From: a virus
Virus record (IMG/VR): IMGVR_UViG_3300042691_043753
Coordinates: 1 to 27,532 of that record
Reading direction: 5' to 3' (one strand)
Length of the DNA stretch: 27,532 bases
The position numbers were made by a program, and so were the translations under genes. The notes under the pieces were generated by a model. That model was not told where the DNA came from, searched no databases, and saw only the letters and a program-made list of their open reading frames with translations. Numbering within the stretch: position 1 is the stretch's first letter; every line of letters starts with the position of its first letter. Below, in pieces: positions 1,769 to 21,800 of this stretch.

Positions 1769-1782
1769 AAATTATTTTACAC
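1769..1782 (-). promoter_or_regulatory. GTGTAAA leader motif before the terminal fibre gene
   Basis: GTGTAAA, then ATAATTT, then the ATG at 1768. It overlaps the end of the J-like gene, whose last codons plus stop (ATT AAT GTG TAA) form part of the motif. Confidence 0.45.
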
Positions 1783-4700
1783 ATTAATTATTTTATCGTT
1801 AGAATCAAATGCATAAAAATCAACTGTAGTTTTATAACTAGCGTTTCCTAATTGAGTCTCACCCAAAAAGACTGTTATAGTTTGTTGTTTATTATTATAA
1901 ACATTGAAAGTGAGAGATTTGCCATTTCTATTTATAATACACATTAGACCAGAAAGAAAAGCAATACCCCTTGAAATCAATAAAATATCAAACAAAGATT
2001 CAAAATCAATTGTCATATATTCATATTTATTATTCAAATAATCTCCATTTAATGTTTCTCCTTCTATCAGAAAACTAAAATCAAAATCTCTAGAAACAGC
2101 ACCGACATAATTTATTGTACTTATAGAAAGGCAACTAGATATCTCGGAACTAGAAAAAAGTTCATTTATATTTTTCTCAGAAGAAAATACAATTTGTTTT
2201 TCTTTATTTTGATTCTTATCAATATATTGATTTTTTTCTATTATATCAAATTTTTCCTGTTGATATCTCATTGCTGAAACAGCATATTCATTTGAAGAAA
2301 CTTCATTTATACTTATTATTTTGAACAAATCATATTCAGAATCAGTATCATTTATATAAATTGAAAAAGTTGATCCTGATCTTAATTTTGAATATTGACC
2401 ATATATATTATCTGGAAAATGAGTCAAATATAAATCAGTAATAGAAGCGTAAGCTCCATTCAAAGCAACAACACCATACAATTTATCACCAACTGTTCTT
2501 TGTGTAGAAGCTAATAACTCATTATTTCTATAATATCTTATATACTGAGAATCATAAGTTATCTTAAAAATATCTGAAATACTCACTACACCAGTAGCTG
2601 AATAAACACTAGAACCATTGCTTTCTATAACAAAATCAGAACCATTAAATCTAAAACGATATGTTATATCCGTATAACTAGTATTTATATCATTTACCTC
2701 AGATAAACCAATTGATGTTTGACTTGAAACATCGCCAACTTTGAATGAAATTTGACAATTATCTATAAAATATTGATTCGAAAATGCTTTTTTATTCCAA
2801 GCAGCTGATAAAGATGAATCGGCTGATAAAATTTTATTATTATTTGAACTAATAATACCCGCAACAATCTGCCAAGAAAAATATCTTTCACTAATGATTT
2901 TTAATCTTAAATTAGCATTATCGATTTCATAAATAGAAAAATTCAGTTCAGAAGGCTTGTTATTAATAACAGAAAATATTTTTATATTTTTACCCAAATA
3001 GTTCTCAGGAACTTCCCTATCAATATAAATATAATTATCTTTGAAATCTAAATTAATTATTTTACCATAAATAACAGAAGCGTTTTTAAGAGTATCAGAT
3101 ATTCTTATAACATTTCCAATTTGTAATAATGTCGCTTCTATACCTGTAGAAAAACCAACAACTTCAGATTCTAATTTACCCGTAGCCAAATACCATTTAC
3201 CAATTCTTTGCGCTTCTGATCTGCTTGTTGTACCAAAACTCAAAACCTCTTTTTCAATGATACCAAATTTTCTTATCAATTCCTGATCTTCAACATAAAC
3301 TATTTTATCTTTAAATTTATCATATTTATCTAAATAAGGAACTTTAACTACAGAAAAACTTGTATTTAAGTCTGAAGAAGCATATGTAAACAAACCATCT
3401 TTCACATTTGAATTAGAAAAAATATAAACAGGACTCTGCAAAACATCAGAAGTCAAACTAAGTAAACCATTTTTAAAATAAAAAATTCCTCTGAAAATAG
3501 AAGATAAATCAGTCAAAGTTTTTAAACCTTCGTTTTGGTTATTTATAATAACATTACAGGAAAAACGAGGTTCTAAAAATTCTGAAAAATCATCATGTTT
3601 AGCTACACAATAACCACTTTCGACGTTCAACGAAGCCGGAAATATTTTTCTACTCATATACAATCTACTAATTTCAGTATCATTAGAAAAATACGATAAA
3701 CCCAAAGATGGATCACCGATAAAATATTTTAAAATATACAGTTTTATTTTATTTTCAACATTTGCATTTGGATTTATTTGCAAATAATCATTCAACGCTA
3801 AAAAAAGATCGCCCTGCAAATCTTGCTCCAAAACTTTCCTAGGTCCAAAATCATTACATAATTTTATCTTAACTATATTTCCAAAAAAGCTAACTGAGCA
3901 AATAACTTTTTTATAATTATAAGCGATTTCTTCCCCCAAATTATTTTTTATATCATATAAATAGATTATAGAACCAATTGGATATCTTTCTTGTATTTCT
4001 GAAATACTCAATGAAGTAGTAAAACTAATTGTATTATAATCCGCTTGACCATATTGCAATGTATTATCAAAAGTAAATGAAACTGAAGAAAATTTTGTTC
4101 TTGAGTTTGTTTTTATTAATTCGTCACAATATTTTGATAAAGTCAAAAACTGCCATTTATCTAAATCCGTTTCATTTATTTGACCCCTAGCCATTCCATA
4201 CCGACCATTCGAACATAAATCATAAAAAATCCAAGCTGGATTATTAGTCCATTTTAAACTTTTATTAAAATTTCCTGACCAATTATCAATATATTCTCTA
4301 GCTTCTGCATCATAATTATCAGGAACTCGAATTTTTAATAATTTGCAATCATATGATCTAGTTGGAATAGAATTAAAATGTCTAGAACTAATTGTATTAT
4401 AAGTAACAGCTGAATACGGAAAAGAAAAAGGATATTTTATATATTCTACGACAGAATCTAAAGAAATACTTCTGAATTGATTCGTTGATGAAAGCACAGA
4501 TCCCCTTACACTATAAACATTTATTATAATAGAAGGAAATGGATCAACAGTTTTGTCTATTGATTCAACTTCTATTTTAAATGGAAGTATAATTGCTCCA
4601 CCTTTAGCTACAAATACACCATTGAAATATAAATAATAGTCAACACCTGTTGACAAATTTTGAGCTTGAATAACAAAACTTACCGCACCGCCAACAACGT

Positions 4701-5292
4701 TATTATTATCAATATTATATAAATTATCCAAACTAATATTAAAATCAAATTCTTCTGAGTACTTATTGCTAATAGGATGACTTACTACTGTTGAAAAATT
4801 TTTCTTTTTTTTGTTTATCTCGTTTATAGAACCAGCAATATTAGATAAAGAAGAAAATGTCGAAATATCAAAGCCTATTTTTCCTCCAGAATAGATAGTG
4901 GGATCGTTTAATTTATTTTGTTGAACGATAGCAGATGGAATATCATATATTCTTGTTTTATATTCATAAATAGCTTGAGAATAAAGAGAAACATTTTTAG
5001 TTTGTTCGCCAAACGAAGCTAAAAAAGAGTTTTGAGAAAAATTATATAAATTACTTTTCGGATCTATAACTGGTGTATCATTATAATATACGCCTTGACC
5101 TATAGTTGTAGCATTATTTATATTAACATAATTAACTGTTTGACCATCATAATTCACAAATCCTTCAATTGGTCCTTCACATAAAACATCAATTGAATTG
5201 TAAAAAGATTCCGTTTCAAAAGACGGATCATTTTGTCCTTGTGAATTTGATTTTAAAAAATCACTAATATTAGTATCAAGATAAATTCTCAT
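1777..5292 (-). CDS. Tail tip host-specificity protein, lambda gpJ-like
   Basis: A 1171-residue protein, about the length of lambda gpJ. Near residues 30-50 it has the J-type opening (SIDVLCEGPIEGFV). Around residues 300-400 it has the conserved block with RVPDNYDAEAREYIDNWSG, then NNPAWIFYDLCSNGRYGM and DKWQFLTLSKYCDELI, which is diagnostic for the family. The tail-tip hub region continues to about residue 790 (LQIGNVIRISDTLKNASV). Residues about 822-960 hold an inserted jelly-roll/SPRY-like lectin domain (AWNKKAF...ITYDSQYIRYYRNNELLAS). After that only about 200 residues remain, so the long fibre part typical of J is short here and probably supplied by the next gene. It starts 9 nt after the I gene; no Shine-Dalgarno is visible (TTATTTAAA before ATG). 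Confidence 0.9.
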   Translation of the reverse strand: MRIYLDTNISDFLKSNSQGQNDPSFETESFYNSIDVLCEGPIEGFVNYDGQTVNYVNINNATTIGQGVYYNDTPVIDPKSNLYNFSQNSFLASFGEQTKNVSLYSQAIYEYKTRIYDIPSAIVQQNKLNDPTIYSGGKIGFDISTFSSLSNIAGSINEINKKKKNFSTVVSHPISNKYSEEFDFNISLDNLYNIDNNNVVGGAVSFVIQAQNLSTGVDYYLYFNGVFVAKGGAIILPFKIEVESIDKTVDPFPSIIINVYSVRGSVLSSTNQFRSISLDSVVEYIKYPFSFPYSAVTYNTISSRHFNSIPTRSYDCKLLKIRVPDNYDAEAREYIDNWSGNFNKSLKWTNNPAWIFYDLCSNGRYGMARGQINETDLDKWQFLTLSKYCDELIKTNSRTKFSSVSFTFDNTLQYGQADYNTISFTTSLSISEIQERYPIGSIIYLYDIKNNLGEEIAYNYKKVICSVSFFGNIVKIKLCNDFGPRKVLEQDLQGDLFLALNDYLQINPNANVENKIKLYILKYFIGDPSLGLSYFSNDTEISRLYMSRKIFPASLNVESGYCVAKHDDFSEFLEPRFSCNVIINNQNEGLKTLTDLSSIFRGIFYFKNGLLSLTSDVLQSPVYIFSNSNVKDGLFTYASSDLNTSFSVVKVPYLDKYDKFKDKIVYVEDQELIRKFGIIEKEVLSFGTTSRSEAQRIGKWYLATGKLESEVVGFSTGIEATLLQIGNVIRISDTLKNASVIYGKIINLDFKDNYIYIDREVPENYLGKNIKIFSVINNKPSELNFSIYEIDNANLRLKIISERYFSWQIVAGIISSNNNKILSADSSLSAAWNKKAFSNQYFIDNCQISFKVGDVSSQTSIGLSEVNDINTSYTDITYRFRFNGSDFVIESNGSSVYSATGVVSISDIFKITYDSQYIRYYRNNELLASTQRTVGDKLYGVVALNGAYASITDLYLTHFPDNIYGQYSKLRSGSTFSIYINDTDSEYDLFKIISINEVSSNEYAVSAMRYQQEKFDIIEKNQYIDKNQNKEKQIVFSSEKNINELFSSSEISSCLSISTINYVGAVSRDFDFSFLIEGETLNGDYLNNKYEYMTIDFESLFDILLISRGIAFLSGLMCIINRNGKSLTFNVYNNKQQTITVFLGETQLGNASYKTTVDFYAFDSNDKIINV

Positions 5293-5301
5293 TTTAAATA
5301 A

Positions 5302-5862
5302 TTATGGAGCACCTTCAGCTAAGATTTTTTCTCGTAAAATTAGATTTTCTTGAGCAGTTCTTTTATCATTTGCATACATTGCAAAAGAAATTGAATTTCC
5401 AACTACAACTGAGCCTATTCTTAATCGACCATAAGCTAAAGGAACAGGAACATTTCTAAAAGTTACGTTTTCATAATTACTAAATAATCTCGATACTGTT
5501 TTTATATCTATAGGAGACTGAGGAGACAATAGCTTAGTTATCAACATTTGAATTCCAGTAGATATAGCTAATAAAACTAAACCTATTAATATTTGTTCAG
5601 CAGCGCCGATTACTAAAGGAGCTACAACTACTTTTGAATTTTTCTTTAATATTGGAGAGTTCAAATACTCTGGAGCCACAATAACATCATCTACATATAT
5701 AATAAAATGACTAATATATTCATTAAGCAAACCTAATGTTGAAACTAATTTATTACTATTAGCTTCGATAGCTTGAAAAATTTCAATAACAGAAGAAACA
5801 TTTAAATTCCATTCTGTATCGATAAAATTTTCAAAGACTCCATGTAATTTTACATTAACCAT
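5302..5862 (-). CDS. Tail tip assembly protein, lambda gpI-like
   Basis: 186 residues. The N-terminal half reads like the small ubiquitin-like fold of the lambda gpI family (VKLHGVFENFIDTEWNLNV, then a Val-Val-Ala-Pro-Leu-Val-Ile-Gly-Ala-Ala segment at about 78-90). A hydrophobic helix follows at about 88-112 (ILIGLVLLAISTGIQMLI), and then the family's NVPVPLAYGRLRIGSVVVG near residues 138-156. In lambda, gpI acts in tip assembly with K, L and J, and the same gene order holds here (L, K, I, J). It starts 4 nt after the stop of the K gene and is preceded by the GTGTAAA motif instead of a Shine-Dalgarno. Confidence 0.85.
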   Translation of the reverse strand: MVNVKLHGVFENFIDTEWNLNVSSVIEIFQAIEANSNKLVSTLGLLNEYISHFIIYVDDVIVAPEYLNSPILKKNSKVVVAPLVIGAAEQILIGLVLLAISTGIQMLITKLLSPQSPIDIKTVSRLFSNYENVTFRNVPVPLAYGRLRIGSVVVGNSISFAMYANDKRTAQENLILREKILAEGAP

Positions 5863-5876: not shown

Positions 5877-6199
5877 TTCATTTCAAGCATTTCATCTGTA
5901 TCTAAATTATAAAGCAACATATTCATATTATGATATTTCTGATGGAAAACATCTAAATCAGAAAAAGAGGAATTAGAAAAATGACTATGAAAAAAGTATA
6001 ATATTTTATATTTATTTTTAATCTTTAGATAATCAAGCGGAGAAACTAAAAAATAATTTTTTTTATCTGGATGTTTATTTTCAACAGGCAAAAAAAGTAA
6101 AGAATGATCTGATTCTACTATAAAACCACAGCTTTCAGAATCTAAATTACTGTTCGAATATTTTTTTATATCAGAAATAATTTTATTGTTTATTATCAT
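5867..6199 (-). CDS. JAB/MPN metalloprotease-like tail protein, gpK N-domain only
   Basis: About 110 residues from the ATG at 6199. The frame is open up to an ATG at 6250, but that would overlap the L gene by 68 nt, whereas 6199 overlaps by 17 nt and begins just before the JAB fold. Metal and catalytic residues of the JAMM motif are visible, numbered from 6199: E22 (ESCGF), H71-S-H73, S80 and D83. The loop is H73-x6-S-x2-D, one residue shorter than the usual x7. In lambda, gpK joins this domain to an NlpC/P60 peptidoglycan peptidase. Here the protein ends right after the JAB domain, and no NlpC/P60 gene is seen in the window. Its position between L and I supports the assignment. The likely role is tail tip maturation or assembly. 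Confidence 0.8.
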   Translation of the reverse strand: MIINNKIISDIKKYSNSNLDSESCGFIVESDHSLLFLPVENKHPDKKNYFLVSPLDYLKIKNKYKILYFFHSHFSNSSFSDLDVFHQKYHNMNMLLYNLDTDEMLEMKCK

Positions 6200-7295
6200 A
6201 TGGATATGTAGATGGAAAAGCTCCAAACGGAAGAGCTTTATTCTCTTCATTTAATACAACATAATCTTCGAATCTCAATAAGCAACCGCGCAATGTTTTT
6301 GAGCATTGATCTTGTTTCCAAACATCTGTATTTAAATCTGGCTTTTTATTTATAGAATGAGAGTCTACACAAACATAAAAAGTTTTTTGTTTATTATTAG
6401 TACTTAATATAAAATTATTCTTTAAATCGCTCGGAACATTTGGAATATAATCTAAATATACAAAATCTCCAGAAACATAGACACCAGTTTTATTCCATCT
6501 TCCTTTATAATTCAAACCAGTTAATCCATAAGTTTCACTACGTAATGTTGATTTATAATTAGCTAAAAATACTTTATCATTTTCATCTGCTATAGGTACT
6601 CCAACATCATAATAATCCCCCCATACTTTTTCGAACCACCAAGAACTATTTAATAAACCTTTATTGTTTTTCATAAAATTACTTGCATCATTTTTTAGGC
6701 TTGCCGAAAGCGTATCTAAACCATCAGTAATTGATGGACCTAAATAATCTGGAGTACTACCATAATTACAGCCGCAACCTCTATAACACCAAGAACAAGT
6801 ATCATTTGTTACTTTTCTAGCTGGTATATTGATATTTTGAATATCTACTTTTGTAGCTAGTTCTAACTCGATAAATTCTTTATTCTCAGATTTTTTTAAA
6901 TTTATCAAAAATTTATCATATGCAATATAAGTTCTAAAATTAGATGCACCATATGGATTTATACCATCTGTAAAATTAGAAGAGTCTAAATCTTTACCTA
7001 AAACTTTTTTACGAATAAAACTCTTTCCAATTAAATCATTTCGATCTTTAAGTACATAAGATAAATAATTATTAATATTGGCTATTTTTAAAGTAGGTTT
7101 TGACTGCTTTCCATCAGATGAAGATTGTAGATTTGAAAGTTCAGAAGGAATAAAAATATATTCTTGATTTTGGAAAAATATATTTTTTGAAAAATTTTTA
7201 GAACCATGAAATCGTAAATAACCTTCTGTAGATTCTAATTCTAATTCATACAAATCAAAAATAACATAATTATCTAATTTAAAAAAAGTGTTCAT
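6183..7295 (-). CDS. Minor tail protein, lambda gpL-like, with Fe-S cysteines and an insertion
   Basis: 370 residues, well above the roughly 230 of lambda gpL. Family features in order: an N-terminal FDLYELEL strand; PTLKIANINNYLSYVLKDRN (residues about 69-88); LIGKSFIRKKVLGKDLD (about 89-105); NIPARKVTNDTCSWCYRGCG (about 156-175); and a C-terminal CSKTLRGC block. The four cysteines expected to bind the gpL iron-sulfur cluster are C167, C176, C331 and C338, with spacings C-x8-C and C-x6-C. The about 150 residues between the pairs are an insertion. Its second half (about 262-329: YKGRW...GVYVSGDFVYLDY...TFYVCVDSH...W) looks like a small CBM5/12-type carbohydrate-binding module. It follows the 996-residue gene after 1 nt. 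AGGA lies 10 nt before the ATG, a weak Shine-Dalgarno at best. Confidence 0.85.
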   Translation of the reverse strand: MNTFFKLDNYVIFDLYELELESTEGYLRFHGSKNFSKNIFFQNQEYIFIPSELSNLQSSSDGKQSKPTLKIANINNYLSYVLKDRNDLIGKSFIRKKVLGKDLDSSNFTDGINPYGASNFRTYIAYDKFLINLKKSENKEFIELELATKVDIQNINIPARKVTNDTCSWCYRGCGCNYGSTPDYLGPSITDGLDTLSASLKNDASNFMKNNKGLLNSSWWFEKVWGDYYDVGVPIADENDKVFLANYKSTLRSETYGLTGLNYKGRWNKTGVYVSGDFVYLDYIPNVPSDLKNNFILSTNNKQKTFYVCVDSHSINKKPDLNTDVWKQDQCSKTLRGCLLRFEDYVVLNEENKALPFGAFPSTYPYDNKQ

Positions 7296-7296
7296 A

Positions 7297-10287
7297 TTAT
7301 GATTTTCCTGCTAAACGAAATATATTCGGTAATCTAAAACTAAATAAATTTGATTTCAAATTAATAGACGATGAACTAGGTTCACCTGAAAATAAACTGA
7401 AATACTCATTAACTAAATAAGAATAAGTTGATTGCAATTCTGAAGTAGATAAATTTCGTTTATAAAAAATAAAATCAAAATAATTTATACCAATTGTAGG
7501 ATTTCTATTTATTAATTTTAATGTTGTATTTTTTAAATCTTCTATTTTTCCTGCGCTTGTAATAAATTGAGCATTCTCTGGAAGAAGATTGTTATTAATA
7601 AAATAATAATAATAAGTACCTTTTCTTCTTATATTTAATATAAATGGTCTATATAAATTTTGTGAGTTTAATTTATGTATGGTGCCGCTTCCTGAAGATA
7701 AAGTTATTTCAGAACCACCAGATGAATTAGATATTTTAAATGTATTCACACCAGCACTAATAATATAATAAACTTTTTTATCTTCACTATATGGACTTGC
7801 AGCGTCATATTGTGTTATTTGAGTTGGTAAACTATCTCCTGTAAAAGCAATTATATCACCATTATTCAAATTATGATTTGTAGTTGTGGTAATTATATTT
7901 GAACTTATGCTTGATATCTGCAATAAAGAATATAATTGCTTTGAAATTATCAATCCATCTGTATAAGATTCATTATTATTTTGTCTATTCCATAAACAAG
8001 CGTTATTATAATAAAATAGTATATCATCTTTTTGCGTTGGTGCATACAAAGGATCACCTTTACTAATATAAAATTGATTTTTTACTCTTGATGTTGATAT
8101 TGAATTAGAATAGTTCCAATCAAATAAAGATGCATAAATACGTTCATCATTGGCTAATGAAAAATCATCAAAGGAACAAATGAGAAAAAGATCAAAGTCG
8201 CCAAATGAAGTTGAATTAGAAAAATTTACTTGTAAATATTGATTATTTTTTAAGTTTATTGTTTTATAACTAGAAGCTCCTAAATTTTTATAATTAGCAA
8301 CATAATTTCCTATATTTGAACCAGAAGAATTAGTTAATTGAATGGTATTAGAAACGTCATTCCAAGTTGTATTATTCACTATATCGCTATTTTTGAATCT
8401 AAAAACATAATCTGATGGTAAAATATTATTATATAGAGAAAAATTAATAGAAGCATTAGTGAATGAATCTATCAAATAACCTGGTTGACGATTATTCAAA
8501 TTAGTATTGATAGGCATCCAGTTACCATATTTATAAAAAGATGTGTTATCAACTCCTGCATTTATTACATTAGCTGCATTACTGTCTCTAGTTTTTAATT
8601 TTGGAGTATATTTTAATTTACCATCAGGATATCTTACAACCAAATTAGAAATACCTATATCCCCATCTTGTGCATACGGAATGTACATTTCAGAAGCAAA
8701 ATCTGTGGCTGTAAGCGGCTTTAGTGTATCAAGATCAACAAGAACCCTACTTCTAGCAAAACGATAAACCTCCCAAACCCAAAAATTTCTATTTAATCTT
8801 CTATTCAATAAATAATCTTTTGTTAATGCAGCGTTTACTGGAATAACATCAAAATATAATTTATTACTAGTTCCAACTGTATCATAAAAATAAAAATACG
8901 ATGGTACAAGTGCAAAATATGGAGGATAAAAAAATCCACCTTTGCCTCCTCCAGATCCAGATGAAATTGAAGGATTACATACAATTAATCCATTTAAAAA
9001 ATTAGTTTGAAGTTTAGGATCTGATAATTTACTATAAATGTTATATTTTATATCAGTAACTATACCCTGATTATTAACATTTGTAGAAGCTTTCAAAGAT
9101 AAAGCTGGACCGCCATTTGTTGAATCTGAATAACCATTAGTAGAAACTACAGTATTTATAAAGTTCTGTCCGCCTTGGAAACCATCTTTTGTCCAATTAT
9201 TTTGCCACGGAATATTAGTTCCATTACCAATTCGACCAATAATTTGAGTAGAAGATGGAACATAGATATTTATATTTGTTCCTATGCTATTATTACCTGT
9301 TAAATTTAAAAAAGTTCCATTTAGATCGATAGCTCCTTTAGATAAATCCGTCGATTCAAACCTACTATTTTCAGGCAAATAAATATTTATTCCAGAATAC
9401 TGTTTAAAATCATTACTACCATTATTTTTTTCAACTAATTTAGCATACAAATCATATGTATAATTATACCAAGTACTATAATCAATATATAAATCAAATG
9501 CTTTTTTTTCTATTTTTATATTTATTGGAGTTCCAGAATAACCTAAAAAAACTTCTTCAGAGACCGATTGAGAAACTGAATCAACACCACTCGCATAAAT
9601 TGAAACTCCTGAATTATTATTTACTAAAGAATGCAATCTTGCATAATAATTTTGATTTACTGTTAAAGAAGGAAATTCATTTGACGTTAATCTATAAAAA
9701 ACGTCTTCATCGCTAAAACCATAAAAAGTAGAATACGATGGATCAATATTATTATTTTTCGCAACATTGATATATTTCGTAAAATCTGGTGAACTAAAAT
9801 TTGTTGTGGTTGAAAGATCGAGTCTATACCCAGTTATAAAATAATTATGTAAATTATCTCCAGTGATTCCAGTTGGCGCTTTCCAATAGAAATCATATAT
9901 CGGACCCGCATAATTAGACACAACTCTAAATGATCTTGGATTTCCGCCTGTTATATCGATTATTTTTGTACCAGTTATATATAAAGATATATTCCCACTT
10001 GGATCAGAAGAACCATCTTCAATAGATGTCGATGCTATAGTTATTATAGTTTGTTCATCAGATGATGGACTTGATATTGTCGGGCTATAGAATATATCAA
10101 AGATTGCATAATCACTTGGACTAATTGTAAAAGAATTTTTTGATAAACTAAAATTAGTTATATTTGAGTTATCTAAATCATAAAAGATTTCTGAATTTCC
10201 GCTATTACTTATTGTAACAGGAAAATGAATACCGAATCCAGTTAAGCAATTACCGATATTAATCCCAGTAACATTTACATAACTCAT
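7297..10287 (-). CDS. Large multi-domain tail protein (Ig-like, FN3-like, lectin, FCCH-like)
   Basis: 996 residues, all-beta, with no lambda counterpart. Residues about 1-110 resemble an ASPM/SPD-2/Hydin-type immunoglobulin fold (VTISNSGNSEIFY...FDIFYSP...). About 115-230 is fibronectin-III-like (FYWKAPTGITGD...YFITGYRLDL). About 255-440 is a beta-rich domain with NIYLPENSRFESTDLSKGAI and IYVPSSTQIIGRIGNGT, followed by a Gly-rich patch (SSGSGGGKGGFFYPP). About 610-775 and 875-965 appear to be two halves of a LamG/ConA-like lectin (FGDFDLFLICSFDDFS; ending YKRNLSTSELQSTYSYLVNEY). About 785-870 match the E1-FCCH-like phage module (NIITTTTNHNLNNGDIIAF...NTFKISNSSGG) that seems to interrupt the lectin. 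The start overlaps the upstream stop as ATGA. Role inferred: tail decoration or surface attachment. Confidence 0.75.
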   Translation of the reverse strand: MSYVNVTGINIGNCLTGFGIHFPVTISNSGNSEIFYDLDNSNITNFSLSKNSFTISPSDYAIFDIFYSPTISSPSSDEQTIITIASTSIEDGSSDPSGNISLYITGTKIIDITGGNPRSFRVVSNYAGPIYDFYWKAPTGITGDNLHNYFITGYRLDLSTTTNFSSPDFTKYINVAKNNNIDPSYSTFYGFSDEDVFYRLTSNEFPSLTVNQNYYARLHSLVNNNSGVSIYASGVDSVSQSVSEEVFLGYSGTPINIKIEKKAFDLYIDYSTWYNYTYDLYAKLVEKNNGSNDFKQYSGINIYLPENSRFESTDLSKGAIDLNGTFLNLTGNNSIGTNINIYVPSSTQIIGRIGNGTNIPWQNNWTKDGFQGGQNFINTVVSTNGYSDSTNGGPALSLKASTNVNNQGIVTDIKYNIYSKLSDPKLQTNFLNGLIVCNPSISSGSGGGKGGFFYPPYFALVPSYFYFYDTVGTSNKLYFDVIPVNAALTKDYLLNRRLNRNFWVWEVYRFARSRVLVDLDTLKPLTATDFASEMYIPYAQDGDIGISNLVVRYPDGKLKYTPKLKTRDSNAANVINAGVDNTSFYKYGNWMPINTNLNNRQPGYLIDSFTNASINFSLYNNILPSDYVFRFKNSDIVNNTTWNDVSNTIQLTNSSGSNIGNYVANYKNLGASSYKTINLKNNQYLQVNFSNSTSFGDFDLFLICSFDDFSLANDERIYASLFDWNYSNSISTSRVKNQFYISKGDPLYAPTQKDDILFYYNNACLWNRQNNNESYTDGLIISKQLYSLLQISSISSNIITTTTNHNLNNGDIIAFTGDSLPTQITQYDAASPYSEDKKVYYIISAGVNTFKISNSSGGSEITLSSGSGTIHKLNSQNLYRPFILNIRRKGTYYYYFINNNLLPENAQFITSAGKIEDLKNTTLKLINRNPTIGINYFDFIFYKRNLSTSELQSTYSYLVNEYFSLFSGEPSSSSINLKSNLFSFRLPNIFRLAGKS

Positions 10288-12290
10288 AATTTTACGATAG
10301 TATTAAAATAAACATCAGAAGATAAATTACCCTTAAATTCTAAAAATTTTACATTTATATCATGATTATCTTTAAATTTATAAGAATGATTCCATTCTGG
10401 ACAATAAAAAGTCAATTGTTTATTGTAAGGTTCAGGTAATATAAATTCAAATAATTTAAATCCACATCTGTCATCTAAAAATTTTAATATTGCAAAAGCT
10501 TCTTTATCAGATCGATTTGTGAAAGATAATGATAAATCAAGTATATTTTTATTTATACCATCTTGTTCATAAGCAATAGAAGTCATCTCATATTCATTTT
10601 TCATAAATCTAGGATTCAAAGGTATTTTAAAATCAAGATCGGGCTTAAAATAAAATTTTCTTGTAAATAAACTATTTGCGCCAGTTGGACCTTGGCTTAA
10701 ATTTAAGACAACGGAATTTTCTCCAGTATACCAATAATAGCCACCAGCAGATGAAATAGAATCATAATAAACTATATCATTTTTTTCATATTTTTTACCG
10801 TCAACGAAAGGTCTAATAGAAGATTCATCGGAAACTATATATCCTTTATAATCTAAATTTGAATCATAAGCTGTTGTGCAATTTATAATTATATTATTAA
10901 CATTTGAATCGACAGAAGCGTAATCTAAATTTTGAAAGTATATTTTTGCATCATCCTTATATGGATAAAACAAACTCATTGAAACATTTTCATATGAATC
11001 TGTTGGAGTCAAAGGTTCATATTCAAAAGAATTCTGGAAAAAACCAATTAATGAAAAAGCTTGTTTATCTGTCAAACCATCATATTTCAAAGAAAAATTT
11101 GTAATCAAATTATTAACATTTGGTATAACATTCAAAAAATAACCATCACCATAATTAGTTTTAATTGCTTTTGTACTGAAATTAGCAGAACAACCATAAG
11201 TTTTTTTGAAAAGACTATCTACATCTTTAGTAAGATATTGAGAACCTGTTAAGTTTATTGGTGCATAAGCATAACTATCAGACATGAAGTTTTGATTAGC
11301 GATATATAAATTATCATCATTAGTAAAATATTTTTTAAATAAATATTTTTCTAATTTTATAATCTCTTCATCTGTTGGGGTTTTAGAATAACCCAAGATT
11401 TCATAATACGAAATGTTGCTTGCATCATAATTATATGGTTCGCTTGCAGCAGCGTTTCCATGACCATTTCCAGCAGTTCCAATTCTTAAACTTGCACAAC
11501 CGCTTGCAAAATAATTAGCGTTATTTGTGTTCAATAATTCACAGCCATTATTTCTAAGTCTTAAATTTGTTGTTGTATTATTTTTGATTATAGATACTAT
11601 ATTTTTATTTAATAAGTTAGAAGCGGAAAAAGCAGAATTTAATGTTGATGGTGTTGGATATAATTGATTGGCTTGATCTGGAACAATTATAAATTCTTGA
11701 GATCCAGCTAAAACATTAGGATTTAAAGAATTGTCGATATTATTACCATAAACACCTAAAAACCCCGTAGATGCAACAGAAATATTTAAATTATCTGTAT
11801 TTATTATTGTTGAATAGTTTGCAAAATAATTTTCAGGAGTTTGCAAATTGCCTTTTCTTAAAGAATTGAATTCGTAAACTATGAACCAACATCTATCGCC
11901 AGTTATAAAACCGCTAAAATTCGGAGAACCCGGACTTGGATATAATTGATTAAAAGTTTTTTCATCTGCATTTGCTTCACATTTTACGCTATTTTCATTG
12001 AAATCATAAATAGGCTTTGTCGATGCTCCGTCATAATTATATAAATTTTCTGTAGAATGACCTGGAGCAGAGTTGTACCAAACAGAAATTCTACCTGATG
12101 AATCAAAGTCAAAATAATTTAAATTATCAGTTCTGAACCACGCAAACAAACCGGAAACATCAGCAGGAAATATACTATTACCAGTATAATATTGATAATC
12201 AACTAAATCATATTTGATATAAGATTGAGAATTTATATTAAAATCCTTTATACCAGTAATTGAAAATTGTGTATCTAAAAATTTACTCAT
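10284..12290 (-). CDS. Lectin-gpM-like minor tail fusion protein
   Basis: 668 residues. Residues about 43-335 form a LamG/ConA-like lectin domain: an opening DVSGLFAWFRTDNLNYFD, a GRISVWYN strand, and the typical ending YYEILGYSKTPTDEEIIKLE plus KYLFKKYF. From about 337 the sequence resembles the lambda gpM minor-tail family: NYGDGYFLNVIPNVNNL near 380, FSLKYDGLTDKQAFSLIGFF, and a second similar half DLSLSFTNRSDKEAFAILKF near 580 followed by FYCPEWNHSYKF. A short module at about 497-540 (YEKNDIVYYDS...GGYYWYTGEN) resembles CBM5/12 and sits between the halves. It overlaps both neighbours as ATGA. AAGGA lies 7 nt before the ATG, possibly a functional ribosome binding site. In lambda, M follows H (tape measure) and precedes L, consistent with this position. 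Confidence 0.75.
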   Translation of the reverse strand: MSKFLDTQFSITGIKDFNINSQSYIKYDLVDYQYYTGNSIFPADVSGLFAWFRTDNLNYFDFDSSGRISVWYNSAPGHSTENLYNYDGASTKPIYDFNENSVKCEANADEKTFNQLYPSPGSPNFSGFITGDRCWFIVYEFNSLRKGNLQTPENYFANYSTIINTDNLNISVASTGFLGVYGNNIDNSLNPNVLAGSQEFIIVPDQANQLYPTPSTLNSAFSASNLLNKNIVSIIKNNTTTNLRLRNNGCELLNTNNANYFASGCASLRIGTAGNGHGNAAASEPYNYDASNISYYEILGYSKTPTDEEIIKLEKYLFKKYFTNDDNLYIANQNFMSDSYAYAPINLTGSQYLTKDVDSLFKKTYGCSANFSTKAIKTNYGDGYFLNVIPNVNNLITNFSLKYDGLTDKQAFSLIGFFQNSFEYEPLTPTDSYENVSMSLFYPYKDDAKIYFQNLDYASVDSNVNNIIINCTTAYDSNLDYKGYIVSDESSIRPFVDGKKYEKNDIVYYDSISSAGGYYWYTGENSVVLNLSQGPTGANSLFTRKFYFKPDLDFKIPLNPRFMKNEYEMTSIAYEQDGINKNILDLSLSFTNRSDKEAFAILKFLDDRCGFKLFEFILPEPYNKQLTFYCPEWNHSYKFKDNHDINVKFLEFKGNLSSDVYFNTIVKL

Positions 12291-15860: not shown

Positions 15861-18800
15861 TTATGAATTTCTTATTGCAGCTAATGAACCGCCAAATTGT
15901 TTTTCTTTTCTTATGACTTCTCCAACAGCAGCATATATTCTATTATTTAGATTCTTAGATAATTCAATATCTTGTTGTTCATAACTTGTTGTATTACTAC
16001 CCATCTTAATAGTACCATTTCTTTCAACTGTTGTATTGAAATTGAAAGAGTTATTAGCACTTGTATTATTATTTATAGTTGACGAACTATTTCCAGCAGC
16101 CATTAATGATGAACCGCCAGATTGTAAACCTGCACTATATTTTTTGATTAATGGAGTATTATATAAACCGCCTTCCATATAACCAGGAACTGTATCTGAT
16201 AAGCGAGAACCAATTAAACCACCTGTTTGTCTTCTGAATGGCTTGCTTAATGTATTACCAGTTTTTTGATACCATGTTTCACCATATGTTGGTTTAGATA
16301 ATAAAGATCTAAATCCTGTAAATGTGTTTCCACCTATATACGATCCACCAGAACTTATTAATCCACTAGCTTGAAATTTTTGTAATTGAGCAAATTCTTT
16401 ACCACTCATCATTAATGGATTAGCTCCTTGACCAGATAGTTTACCAGATAACGCTTGAGCTTGTCGCGCTTGTGCATTTTGCGACATATTTGATAATCCC
16501 GCGCCAATAGCAACTGTTGCTGCCGCAGCTACTAAACTTCCAATCATTGCTGCTCTTTGTTGTTTATCTGCAAGTCTTTTTCTTCTATCTTCTTCAGCTT
16601 TTTGTTTTGCAGCGTCTGTCATTTCTTTATACAATGGGCTATTTTCTAATCCCATTTCTGTCATATTAGCCTCCATAGCTGCAATAGTATCGAATTGTTT
16701 ATTAAATTGACCTCCCGTAGCAAAACGTGGAGCAGCAGAAAAATTCAAAGCATCAAGCGCAGCAGGTCCACCCATTGCCATAACTGCATTTCTATTTAAA
16801 ACATACTCACCATTCTCAAGTAAAGCTGGATATTTATCTCCAGAACCAGTTCCAGAAATATACATACCGGATTGTGCGCGTATCAATCCACCTTTTTGTT
16901 TTTGACCAAATGAAAAAGCGCCTCCACCTCCTCCAAATCCAAAACTACCTAATATCTGATATATTCCCGCTCTCATCATGATTGTACTGACTTCATCAAG
17001 AAATTTAGAAGCAATTCCCATTAATGCATCTCCAAGATTATCCGATTCACGAATAGCTGCTTTTATACCATCAACTAAACCATCACCAAACATCCTAGGT
17101 AAATTTTCTCCTAAATTTAATATCAAATCATTTCCTTCTGATTTAAGATTTCCCCAACCTTTTTTAAATCTACCTGCAAAAGTATTATTTACTCTTTCTA
17201 CCTCAACATTAAGTCTTACTTGGGCATCAATATCATCTCTTGTTATTTGCAAAGCTTCTTTTTTAGTTTTTATTTGATCTTGATATCTTCTTATAGTTCC
17301 TGCTAAAACAACATTACCAGCACTTCTTGCGGCAGTTTCTTCTTTTTCTAAGAAAGTTAATTGTTCAGCTTGGGTCATTTTTTCATTAAAACCTTTGCTT
17401 TGTATATTAGATTCAAAAGTGCTAGTATTATAACCAGTATTGCTTGCAGCAGAAGCTACGCGAGACTCTTGAATGCGTTGAAGAGCTGCATACTGAGATC
17501 TTTTTTCAGACGTAATAGATCTTGCTTTTTCTATTTGTTGTATCTTTTCGGCAGCAGCTACACGATCCTCTGCTCTAGTAGATATACTTGACATTTGTAA
17601 ATCAGCAATATCTTTTTCTTTAGATAATTGTTCGTTACTCATTGCAAAATATGGATTATTTTGTATTTCCTTTATAGCTTCAGAACCACCTAAAGCTCCC
17701 TGTAATTGAGTTTCTACTAAAGTCATTATAGTATCATTCAATTTTATTAATGCAGCAGTATTTTCCTGTTCAGCCGCCATCTCCAATATTCTTTGTTGAA
17801 TTTCAGCATTAATTGCCGCATCTTCTGCTGCTCTTTGTTCTTTTAAGATATCAGCTTGTATACCAAATTTTCTTTCAGAAATTTGGGTTCTACTCATTCC
17901 AAATGTTTCTCTTTGATCTTCCAAGCGTCTTTGCATTGCATTTACAGCAGCAGTACTGCGAGCTTTAGAGATTTCTAAAGCGTTACCAATATTTGCAGAA
18001 AGATCTTTCATTTTCTCCATACGCATTAAATTTTCTTTATCAACTGCAGCTTTTTTGACAGCTATATCTTTTTCAACAGCAATGCGAGCTTCATTTAGTT
18101 GTTTATTAATTTCTAGCTCTTTTTTAGCGTTAGCTTGTTTAGTTTCAAATAATTCCTTCTCTCGCGCAGCAGTATCTATAACACCTTGCAACTTTGTCAT
18201 ATCATTTTGATTTTGAAATAAAGCTGTTTGATTTTGTAAATCTATTAGAGCTTGTTGAGCTGCTTGAAGTTTTTTATAAGTTTCTGTATTTGTTTCGTTA
18301 GTTTGATTAAAAATTTCCATTTGTGCATTTATGGTCTGCAAAACTTGTGGAGCTTCATTTACAGAAGAAAGATCAAAACCAGTTTGTGCCACTTGTGCTT
18401 TGGCTTTTTCAAAACTTGCTGATTTGAATTGTTCCGCTAAGGATACAGCATTTCCCGTGAAAGTGCCTTGTTGAATCTGAGGTAATACATTTGATTGATA
18501 AAATTGAGCAGCAGCTTGAGATGGTAAAAACGAAGATTTAAATTCTTTTGTTAAATTTTCAGCATTCTTACTCAAAAAATTAGATCTATCATTAGCTTGT
18601 TCAGCTAAAGCTTTATCATAATCTTGTTGAGATTTTTGTAATTGAAGTTGAGCTTTTTGAGCAGCAGTATTAGCAGTAAAATCAAATTTTCTAGCGTCTG
18701 GAAGATTATTTGATAAAAAGGAATTTATGCTATCTTGAAAATTTGTAGAAAAATCAAGAATAGCAGATTGTATTCTTCTTGAACCAGAATCTTTTTCAAA

Positions 18801-21800
18801 ACTCAAAGCTGTTTCAAATGCTGTTTTAGCAATTTGCTGTTCCATATCTAAAAATATTTGATTAAAAGATCTTGTAGCAGCTTGTTTGAAATTGACAGCG
18901 GCTTTATTAGCTTCTGAAACAATATTGCTTTTTTCTAAATAATTAATAACTTCATCAAAATTTTTATTCAATATATTTTCAGTTAAAGATTTTAATTTTG
19001 ATTCTCTTTCTGATTCGTTTTGTGGAACTATGGATTCGGCTAAAGATTTAATTTGTTCTGATCTTGCAAAACTTAATTGTTCTTCATAAGACGATGTGTT
19101 TGAAAATTGCTTATAATAAAAATTAGCTTGTTCGTCTGCTTTTTTTATAGCGTCTTTATATTTTTTTATAAAATCTGAAGATCCTTTTCCACCTAAACCA
19201 ATAGATAAAGCTGATGCTCTTTCTTCAGGTTTTAGATTTGCACCATATAGTCCAGATTGTCTAGCAGATTCTCTTGTGACTTGATTAGTATAATCTTGCA
19301 ATTGTTTAGTCATTAACGCTACGTCTCCACCAGTAGCATTAAATATTTCTTGCAATTTAACATCTTTAATTTCATTAAAATTATTAGATAATTTTTTAGT
19401 AGCAATTTCTATATCAGAAGATGAAGCTCCAGAAGCTATCATTTGAGTCAAAGATTTTTGAGCTTCAATATATGAAGACGCAGCTGAAATATTTGCTTGA
19501 GATTTTTGAACTTGTTCTTGATTTAAGTCGGCAAGCTCTTCTGCACTCAACTTTGTAGCGTTTAGTGCTGAAGTTAACCCTACTAAAGCACCAGCAGCAG
19601 CACCAATTCCAGCCCCTAATGGACCAAATGCTGCTCCGATACCAGCACCAGTAGATATAGCACTTAAACCAGTACTTAAAATGGATTGTCCTGCTCTTTC
19701 ACCAGAAGTCATTTCCGTACGTTTTCTATTTGCAAAAACAGCTTGTTCAGCAAATCCAGCCAACATTGGACCAGCTATAGATATAGCAGTACCAGCTTTT
19801 GATAAATTTTCAGAAAATTTAGCAAATCTATTACCACTATTAGATATGTTTGATATAGAAGATGTTAAATTTGTTGATAAAGAACCTATAGATGATTGAA
19901 CACTTGAAGAAGCTGATTTAATTTTATTTACAGAAGCTTTTGAAGCATTTTCTATCACATCTGCAAATGCGGCACCAAATACAGCAATATATTGATAAGC
20001 ATTATTAATCTGAGTCAATGCATCTTGAGCAAATTTTTCTGCACTTGATTGTATTTGAGAAGGATTAAAACCAGTTTGATTATTTGCATTTTGATTTCTT
20101 TGTATTCTTCTTCTAGCAGATCTATTATTAGCAAAATTAGGAATAAATCCTTTATTCATTAATCCAGCAGATTTTTGCCCTCTCATTGAATCACTCAATG
20201 CATTACTCAAACCACCATGATCAGATATTGCGGAACTAAATGTTGGTTGACTGCTGTTTCTAATGTGTGGAAAAGGTTTGGTATCAAAGATAGCTTTATT
20301 ACCGCTCATGCTTTCTTCCAAACTCATTACTGATTGTTTATATGCAAAATTAGGTATAAAACCGTTAGCAAAAGATTTTAAAGTAAGAACCGCAGGATCA
20401 ACCATTTTCAATATTTGATCTTGATATTTAATAAGATCTTGCATTGTTGAAGCCTTAACAATATTTTGTCCATAATCCCCAGAAATAAATGTTTCTCCAC
20501 CTAAACCTATGCGTTTAGCGATTTGAGGATATTTAGCTTTTAATCTAGCCAACGGATCTTTAACTTTTGATGAATCAATCGATCTATTCTGGGCAAGGGC
20601 ATAACCAAATATTCCACCTTTACCTTTGATACTATTTGCAATGTCACCATATAAATTAGAAGCATTTCCTTTTCCTTTAGTTGTCAAGTCTTCGATAGAA
20701 ACGATATCCGAAGGTTTGATTTTTCTACCTAGAGTTTTACCAAAAAATTCAAGATCTATAGGATCTGTTTTTCCTAATGTTGCCGTTCCAAAACGAGATT
20801 TAAATTTTGCAAAATTAGGTATACAACCATTTGCAAAAGATTCCCATTTTTGAACTCCATGAACTCTTTCGCGATACGCTAGGAATCTATCAACACCTCC
20901 AAACATTTTTAATTCATCTGGAGTTATACCTCCTAAAATTCTCAAAGATTTATTATCTTTTACAAATGTTGTATATCTACCATTTTCATAAATAGCTTTT
21001 ATTCCTTCAGATAATTGAACCGCACCAAGTTGACTTGATTTATCTTGTATTTCTTTTATATTTCCAGAACGTAAAGCGGCGTCAACATCTTGAACAGGCG
21101 AAAACGATGATGCAGACGCTCCTCTAGAAATGAAAGCTTGTTTTAGTTTTTCAGAAATATTTTTAGCTTGATATACTAATTTACCATTATAATTAGCATA
21201 TTTGATAGCTCCAGTACGTGGACCTTCAATAGAGTCCCAAGCATCAGAATGATAAACATCATTATATATTCTACCATCATTGAATGCATAACCTTTCATC
21301 AATTGAGAAAAATTAGGTATAAAACCTTTATTTTTTGTAAATAAAAACTTCTTATCAGCATGATCTGGAAAATCAACACCAAGCGCACCATCTAAATAAC
21401 CACTTGCAGATAAGAATTTATTAAGCTTTTCTACACTAGTAGCATTCAAATATCTAATAGCATCACCATCCAAAGTTTTACCAAATAATTGTTTTGATTG
21501 TATTGTGCGAGATTTACTGATTGGTTGTAAAATTGCATCAATTTCTGTTGGTATTAAATCTGCAAAATTAGGTATAAAACCTCTAGCAGCAGACATCGCT
21601 AAAAATGCAGGATCTTTAACATATCTTTGGAGCAACATGTTTGTTTCTGCCGATAATCCTTTTACAAGATCAGGATTATTTTTGACCATTTCTGAATAAC
21701 TTGTTCCAGCTAATTGAATGAAATTTTTACCAAATTCTGAAACTAGTTGATTTTTATCTCCAATTTCATTGAAAGCTATTATAGATTCTTTTATTTTAGC

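Follow-up and report, generated by a model that had tools for sequence, protein, structure and literature searches.

How a lambda-type tail tip protein can carry a folded domain between the two cysteine pairs of its iron-sulfur (Fe-S) region, and what such a domain would be doing there, is the question raised by the minus-strand reading frame 7295–6183 of the viral record IMGVR_UViG_3300042691_043753, analysed here at its full length of 27,532 bases (the window), which may be a fragment. This frame is a homologue of lambda gpL, as the first-pass annotation had proposed: its 370-residue product exceeds the cut-offs of Pfam PF05100 (E 1.8e-34, 119.3 bits, cut-off 25) and of NCBIfam TIGR01600 (111.8 bits, cut-off 70.75), PHROGs also assign it to gpL, and in a PDB search lambda gpL was found second-best (E 4.6e-14), after the F2 pyocin hub. 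Residues 5–159 of the AlphaFold model, moreover, superpose by VIA-align on lambda gpL 8iyk_L (Z 16.8, rmsd 3.0, 150 aligned). The protein shares with lambda gpL (PF05100; 8iyk, 8k35) the HDI domain, the C-x8-C and C-x6-C pairs, the ADE-D motif and the gene order M-L-K-I-J, its neighbours matching the gpM, gpK, gpI and gpJ families (Table 1), while the gene block differs from that of lambda by an additional ORF of 996 aa between the gpM-like gene and gpL, where lambda has no extra gene.

Table 1. Features of the gpL-like protein and of its gene block, in positions of the window.
Feature	Coordinates	Strand	Evidence
gpJ-like central fibre/hub protein	1777..5292	-	phrog_31 E 4e-96, PF13550 E 4.5e-14
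gpI-like protein	5302..5862	-	phrog_32 E 1.2e-14
gpK-like protein, JAB type, 127 aa	5867..6250	-	phrog_30 E 4.7e-16, Prok-JAB E 0.024
gpL-like tail tip (hub) protein, 370 aa + stop	6183..7295	-	PF05100, TIGR01600, lambda gpL in PDB
HDI (tube-like) domain, residues 1-150	6846..7295	-	VIA-align to lambda gpL 8iyk_L
First Fe-S cysteine pair, C167-x8-C176	6768..6797	-	aligned to lambda C173/C182; pLDDT under 50
First insertion: variable-length linker, residues about 180-231	6603..6758	-	alignments, model helices
gpL core motif GVPIADENDK, residues 232-241, between both insertions	6573..6602	-	alignment
Second insertion: CBM5/12-like domain, residues 242-329, 88 residues	6309..6572	-	profile, structure match, pLDDT
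Long variable loop in CBM-like domain, residues 284-303	6387..6446	-	mean pairwise identity 0.30; pLDDT under 50 at 285-302
Second Fe-S cysteine pair, C331-x6-C338	6282..6305	-	aligned to lambda C205/C212
996-aa protein, possible side fibre or adhesin	7297..10287	-	homologue directly upstream of gpL in 25/25 loci
gpM-like distal tail protein, 668 aa	10284..12290	-	PF05939 E 1.4e-10

The cysteines of the protein lie at positions 167, 170, 174, 176, 309, 331 and 338, and C167, C176, C331 and C338 align with C173, C182, C205 and C212 of lambda gpL, the residues placed around the cluster density of the lambda structure (PMC10721106). All four stay unchanged in 68/68 sequences of an alignment made of 44 gpL with the insert and 24 without it, and the C-x8-C...C-x6-C pattern, with 120–158 residues between the pairs, is kept in 55/55 distinct full-length insert-bearing relatives from IMG/VR, a set obtained from 279 partly redundant loci by way of 64 distinct sequences including fragments; such constancy means that the four-cysteine pattern is not a chance arrangement. 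Four insert-bearing loci that fail the pattern encode only 168–183 aa, and the first pair is missing from them. The first-pass annotation had therefore read both spacings correctly, and also the long stretch that replaces the usual short loop, with 154 residues between the pairs against 21–22 in ordinary gpL and 22 in lambda itself by its residue numbers (PMC10721106). Among the insert-free loci, 213 of 216 fit the short-loop pattern with 21–22 residues, two of the three misses look short-loop by eye and the other is without the last cysteine pair; these loci came from queries without the insert and give no measure of its frequency. Unlike the four Fe-S cysteines, C51 (present in most relatives and a serine in the window protein), C170 and C174 vary. 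This tail-tip protein probably holds an iron-sulfur cluster. Within the insert, C309 does not vary across the insert-bearing family, and C173 hardly does, but stands at 174 in the window protein; a clamp made of C309 and C173/C174 was considered and dropped, since C309 has its counterpart in tail-fibre CBM5/12-like sequences too. One relative (locus L022, 8001–9062) has a gpL gene with a single internal stop codon.

According to the alignment, the 154-residue loop is made of two insertions flanking a piece of the gpL core, so that the inserted element announced by the first-pass annotation does exist as a discrete domain, but it is not the only addition between the pairs, the core motif having an insertion on each side. 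The first of them is a linker that begins after CNYG, is very variable in length, has a mean pairwise identity of 0.36, and forms helices at 198–210 and 217–224 in the model. The core motif that follows it, GVPIADENDK, aligns with lambda GPAVADEYDQ, and its D237 is invariant in the 68 sequences. The second insertion replaces fewer than ten residues of lambda with its 88 and stops one residue short of the third cysteine, and the CBM-like domain is thus cleanly inserted beside the second pair; lambda has neither this domain nor the linker. The YKGRW...W segment, which had called attention to the domain, is present, with YKGRW at 263–267 and its distant tryptophan at W326. Mean pairwise identity is 0.72 for the HDI domain, 0.50 for the CBM-like domain and 0.30 for the loop of the latter, and this faster divergence of the insert and its loop fits surface exposure, without being a proof of function.

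A first AlphaFold model, built from 19 close sequences (mean pLDDT 57.8), was replaced by one built from the 68 sequences, with a mean pLDDT of 76.0 and a pTM of 0.51. In ten-residue blocks, the pLDDT of the latter is 79–96 over residues 181–280 and 77–91 over 301–340, with 77–94 for the CBM-like domain 242–329 outside its loop, and it falls under 50 at 1–8, 152–177, 285–302 and 358–370, the first pair C167/C176 being within 152–177. Save for the loop 285–302, the insert is therefore ordered in the model and not disordered, the latter being the outcome that the first-pass annotation had named as speaking against its reading.

The CBM5/12-like nature of the second insertion, another proposal of the first-pass annotation, is upheld by profiles and by structure. 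From the PF02839 matches of 100 genomes, a pattern picked fifteen segments, ten of which made the profiles; profile positions 24–41 fall on residues 307–326 of the window insert with 10.6 bits, and positions 2–18 fall on residues 264–280 of the insert of a relative (L001) with 14.5 bits. Both halves occur in order, with a best family score of 20.2 against 7.0 for the best of 1,360 shuffles and 7.7 for the best insert-free protein. When the ORFs of the window were scanned, the 370-aa gpL-like protein scored highest with both half-profiles, and there were only weak hints of other CBM5/12-like domains. Comparison of the insert with CBM5/12 by hhalign gave a middling probability of 58 over 20 columns. 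The Pfam CBM_5_12 cut-off was not reached, one of 19 members matching at E 0.061 alongside four unrelated weak matches, and the window insert alone did not match this Pfam family; against the PDB, the insert profile gave weak matches to Anabaena All3316 (E 0.069) and to the deacetylase DA1 (E 2.5).

Residues 262–330 of the model match residues 137–184 of the A-1(L) chain 8kec_a with Z 8.7 and rmsd 0.9 A over 47 aligned residues, and Anabaena All3316/Cis13 (7b5h) with Z 5.8 and rmsd 4.9 over 58. From its length and its matching sequence around 139–184 we infer that chain 8kec_a is gp33, of which residues 139–184 themselves weakly match the CBM5/12 profile. The insert thus has the same fold as the joint domain of the A-1(L) short tail fibre gp33 (8kec) and as Anabaena Cis13 (7b5h), where it belongs to a fibre or a baseplate protein, whereas in the window it is inserted in gpL; for the gp33 joint domain, residues 111–215, binding at the wedge periphery is reported (PMC10966104). 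No chitinase CBM chain is among the structure matches listed, which cover mainly residues 6–158, so that absences for the insert mean little. With the chitinase CBM5/12 (PF02839) the insert shares W-x5-Y-x2-GD-x-V in the first half followed by P...W in the second, and it differs by a middle loop longer by about 20 residues, by the missing tryptophan pair and by its score below the Pfam cut-off. In the alignment the closest PF02839 sequence shares 41% identity with the window insert, and we read this sequence and four kin of it as lying in putative tail fibres of prophages, collagen-like repeats occurring in some of them. The gpL fold and the four conserved cysteines are shown, and between the pairs a CBM5/12-like domain of the tail-fibre type that is fixed across this virus group; we are highly confident of the architecture as a whole, namely a lambda-type gpL with a CBM5/12-like domain inserted in its Fe-S loop.

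Chitin or cellulose is bound in CBM5/12 domains by an exposed pair of tryptophans, which occurs in the second half of 5/10 PF02839 sequences. At the position of this pair (310–313), none of the 44 insert-bearing gpL sequences has an aromatic residue, and the sugar binding ascribed to the domain at first pass finds no direct support: the tryptophan pair is absent (0/44), and the structure most like the insert is part of a docking (“joint”) domain. Aromatic residues stand at 263, 267, 273, 278, 280, 306, 307 and 326 in 43 or all 44 sequences, and these conserved aromatics of the insert probably belong mostly to the core; a sugar site elsewhere than at the tryptophan-pair position is possible. 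As for the place of the domain, by analogy with the lambda structure (PMC10721106) it would face outwards from the tip.

That a hub can have a sugar-binding-like domain between its Fe-S cysteine pairs is already published, for RcGTA and R4C. In the RcGTA hub g13 (6tba/6teh), ion-binding segments 143–167 and 250–263 are described with an oligosaccharide-binding domain, 168–249, between them, and four cysteines hold the cluster (PMC7296036); in the R4C hub (8gtc), whose sequence has cysteines at 147, 157, 244 and 251, the ion-binding segments are 142–161 and 244–266 and the oligosaccharide-binding domain is 162–243 (PMC10276861). By the cryo-EM accounts in both papers the cluster is held across the inserted domain, and the “oligosaccharide-binding” names rest there on structural likeness (PMC7296036, PMC10276861). 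These hubs therefore share with the window protein a folded domain between two Fe-S cysteine pairs; the carriers are distant relatives of PF05100, and their inserted domain gave no match to the window insert in a comparison at the level of sequence profiles (hhalign probability 0.1, E 0.64). CBM insertions are also described in Dit, Tal and tube proteins, with binding shown for some (PMC7291167), and the evolved Dit/Tal of siphophages of Gram-positive hosts likewise carry a carbohydrate-binding-like module, set into a loop of one of the core proteins of the tail tip (PMC7291167), but here the carrier is gpL and not the distal tail protein, a different type of module occupies the Fe-S loop, and binding is putative. 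Listings of open-licence literature brought up no report of a gpL with a CBM5/12 insert.

The insert is a family trait, being present in all 55 distinct full-length IMG/VR relatives, and its gene belongs to a conserved block. Among isolated phages it was not found by tblastn, even at E 10, the full protein matching 936 phage records and none across more than 80% of its length, and a DNA search of phages gave no matches; a lambda-like gpL used as scan query returned only near-identical lambda-like copies. PF05100 occurs in 18 of 398 genomes of one phylum (28 rows, 26 genes), and 0/26 of these genes have an insertion in the Fe-S loop, while 2/26 are split at profile positions 91–94 by an insert of about 190 residues. 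These two gpL of bacterial genomes, L502 (80–1351) and L503 (84–1334), carry their insert in the HDI domain, and by eye it looks like a jelly-roll module in both and has no Pfam match at E 10. BFVD has larger gpL-like proteins by entry name, for instance A0A218MK99 (“minor tail protein L”, 522 aa) and A0A6J5N8N2 (“ChiA1_BD domain containing”).

Directly upstream of gpL, a homologue of the 996-aa protein is found in 25/25 loci with at least 2.5 kb upstream, several of which are near-identical, and on longer contigs the gpM-like gene and others follow in the same order. This protein has no PHROG match and a weak Ig-like match at the N terminus, its ends are conserved (about 420 residues in the N-terminal part) and its middle is variable in relatives, and it is the fastest-changing upstream gene, with 32–52% identity to that of the window vs. 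59–81% for the gpM-like protein. It is a candidate for the side fibre or the main adhesin.

The overall explanation that we propose, and to which we grant an even chance, is that this siphophage group has a lambda-type gpL (hub) whose Fe-S loop is used as an insertion site, with the inserted knobs as accessory adhesins. Three copies of gpL would stand on the tail tip, the [4Fe-4S] cluster would still form across the insert as in the RcGTA and R4C hubs, and the outer surface would bear three CBM-like knobs. Like the CBMs of “evolved Dit”, these knobs might touch the cell surface as accessory contacts of low affinity, probably at glycans, and might so help the tip to settle, with specificity coming perhaps from gpJ and the 996-aa protein. 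Several results speak against this explanation, namely the tryptophan-pair site being non-aromatic in 44/44, the nearest structure binding a baseplate, the weak Pfam and hhalign results, and the pLDDT under 50 of C167/C176. Regarding the role of the CBM-like domain taken by itself, we lean to accessory surface adhesion, at somewhat less than an even chance, ahead of a docking joint and, well behind, of a spacer.

The docking joint is a serious competitor, though we hold it for the less probable of the two: the inserted domain would not be an adhesin but the place where a side fibre docks on the outer face of the tip, the simplest candidate for that fibre being the 996-aa protein. The best structural match of the insert points this way, being to the segment 137–184 of 8kec_a, which presumably belongs to the wedge-binding joint domain of gp33 (PMC10966104), and so do the constant place of the 996-aa homologue directly before gpL and its conserved N-terminal part; in JBD30 the upper baseplate protein is described as helping to form the fibre attachment site (PMC11445458), and the HDI domain of our model matches 8rk3_O, which would be that protein. 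A fixed interface, however, is less expected to diverge faster than the gpL core, as this domain does, although the 996-aa protein is also fast-changing. That the domain binds no ligand at all, being a structural spacer that widens or stiffens the Fe-S part, or a neutral graft, we regard as unlikely; it offers no recognisable ligand platform, and the adjoining linker varies in length while the domain is never lost, but some relatives should have shed a neutral graft, and this domain is kept in 55/55 with a conserved core.

The insert could also have separated the pairs to the point that the cysteines no longer hold a cluster and serve in disulfides or other roles, which would agree with the low-confidence placing of the first pair in the model and with the extra cysteines nearby (C170, C174, C309). 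We find this improbable, because the four Fe-S cysteines are invariant while C51, C170 and C174 vary, because C309 needs no cluster role when the tail-fibre CBM5/12-like sequences have it too, and because RcGTA and R4C, as published, keep the cluster across their insert. Less probable still is a trigger in which the knob across the loop of the cluster lets the Fe-S domain sense contact with the cell: binding of a ligand or movement of a fibre would strain or release the cysteine clamp and so help to open the gpL-gpJ cone. According to the lambda structure paper, what the gpL cluster does has yet to be worked out (PMC10721106).

A second, apparently unrelated type of domain at the site used in RcGTA and R4C would make of the Fe-S clamp, by suggestion, a rigid, surface-exposed scaffold for grafted adhesion or docking modules, an idea that would extend the “evolved Dit” concept to lambda-type tips, and the inserts of L502 and L503, at another site of gpL, point the same way. 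The insert is, then, a variant on additions already known from other phages and not a wholly new kind.

Some features of the neighbouring genes are also worth recording. The gpM-like protein is far longer than lambda gpM, which has 109 residues (PMC10721106), and seems to hold two gpM-like domains, the two PF05939 stretches being seen at a lax limit alone; two such domains are described in the distal tail protein of JBD30 (PMC11445458). A segment with a weak likeness to CBM5/12 seems to lie between the two domains, at 10647–10814. The gpK-like protein has its JAB-type match and no cell-wall peptidase part, and its frame shares 68 bases with the end of gpL. Finally, a tape-measure-like protein of 2,946 aa, at 15861–24701 on the minus strand, has in its middle a motif close to GFIPNFA, repeated several times as judged by eye.
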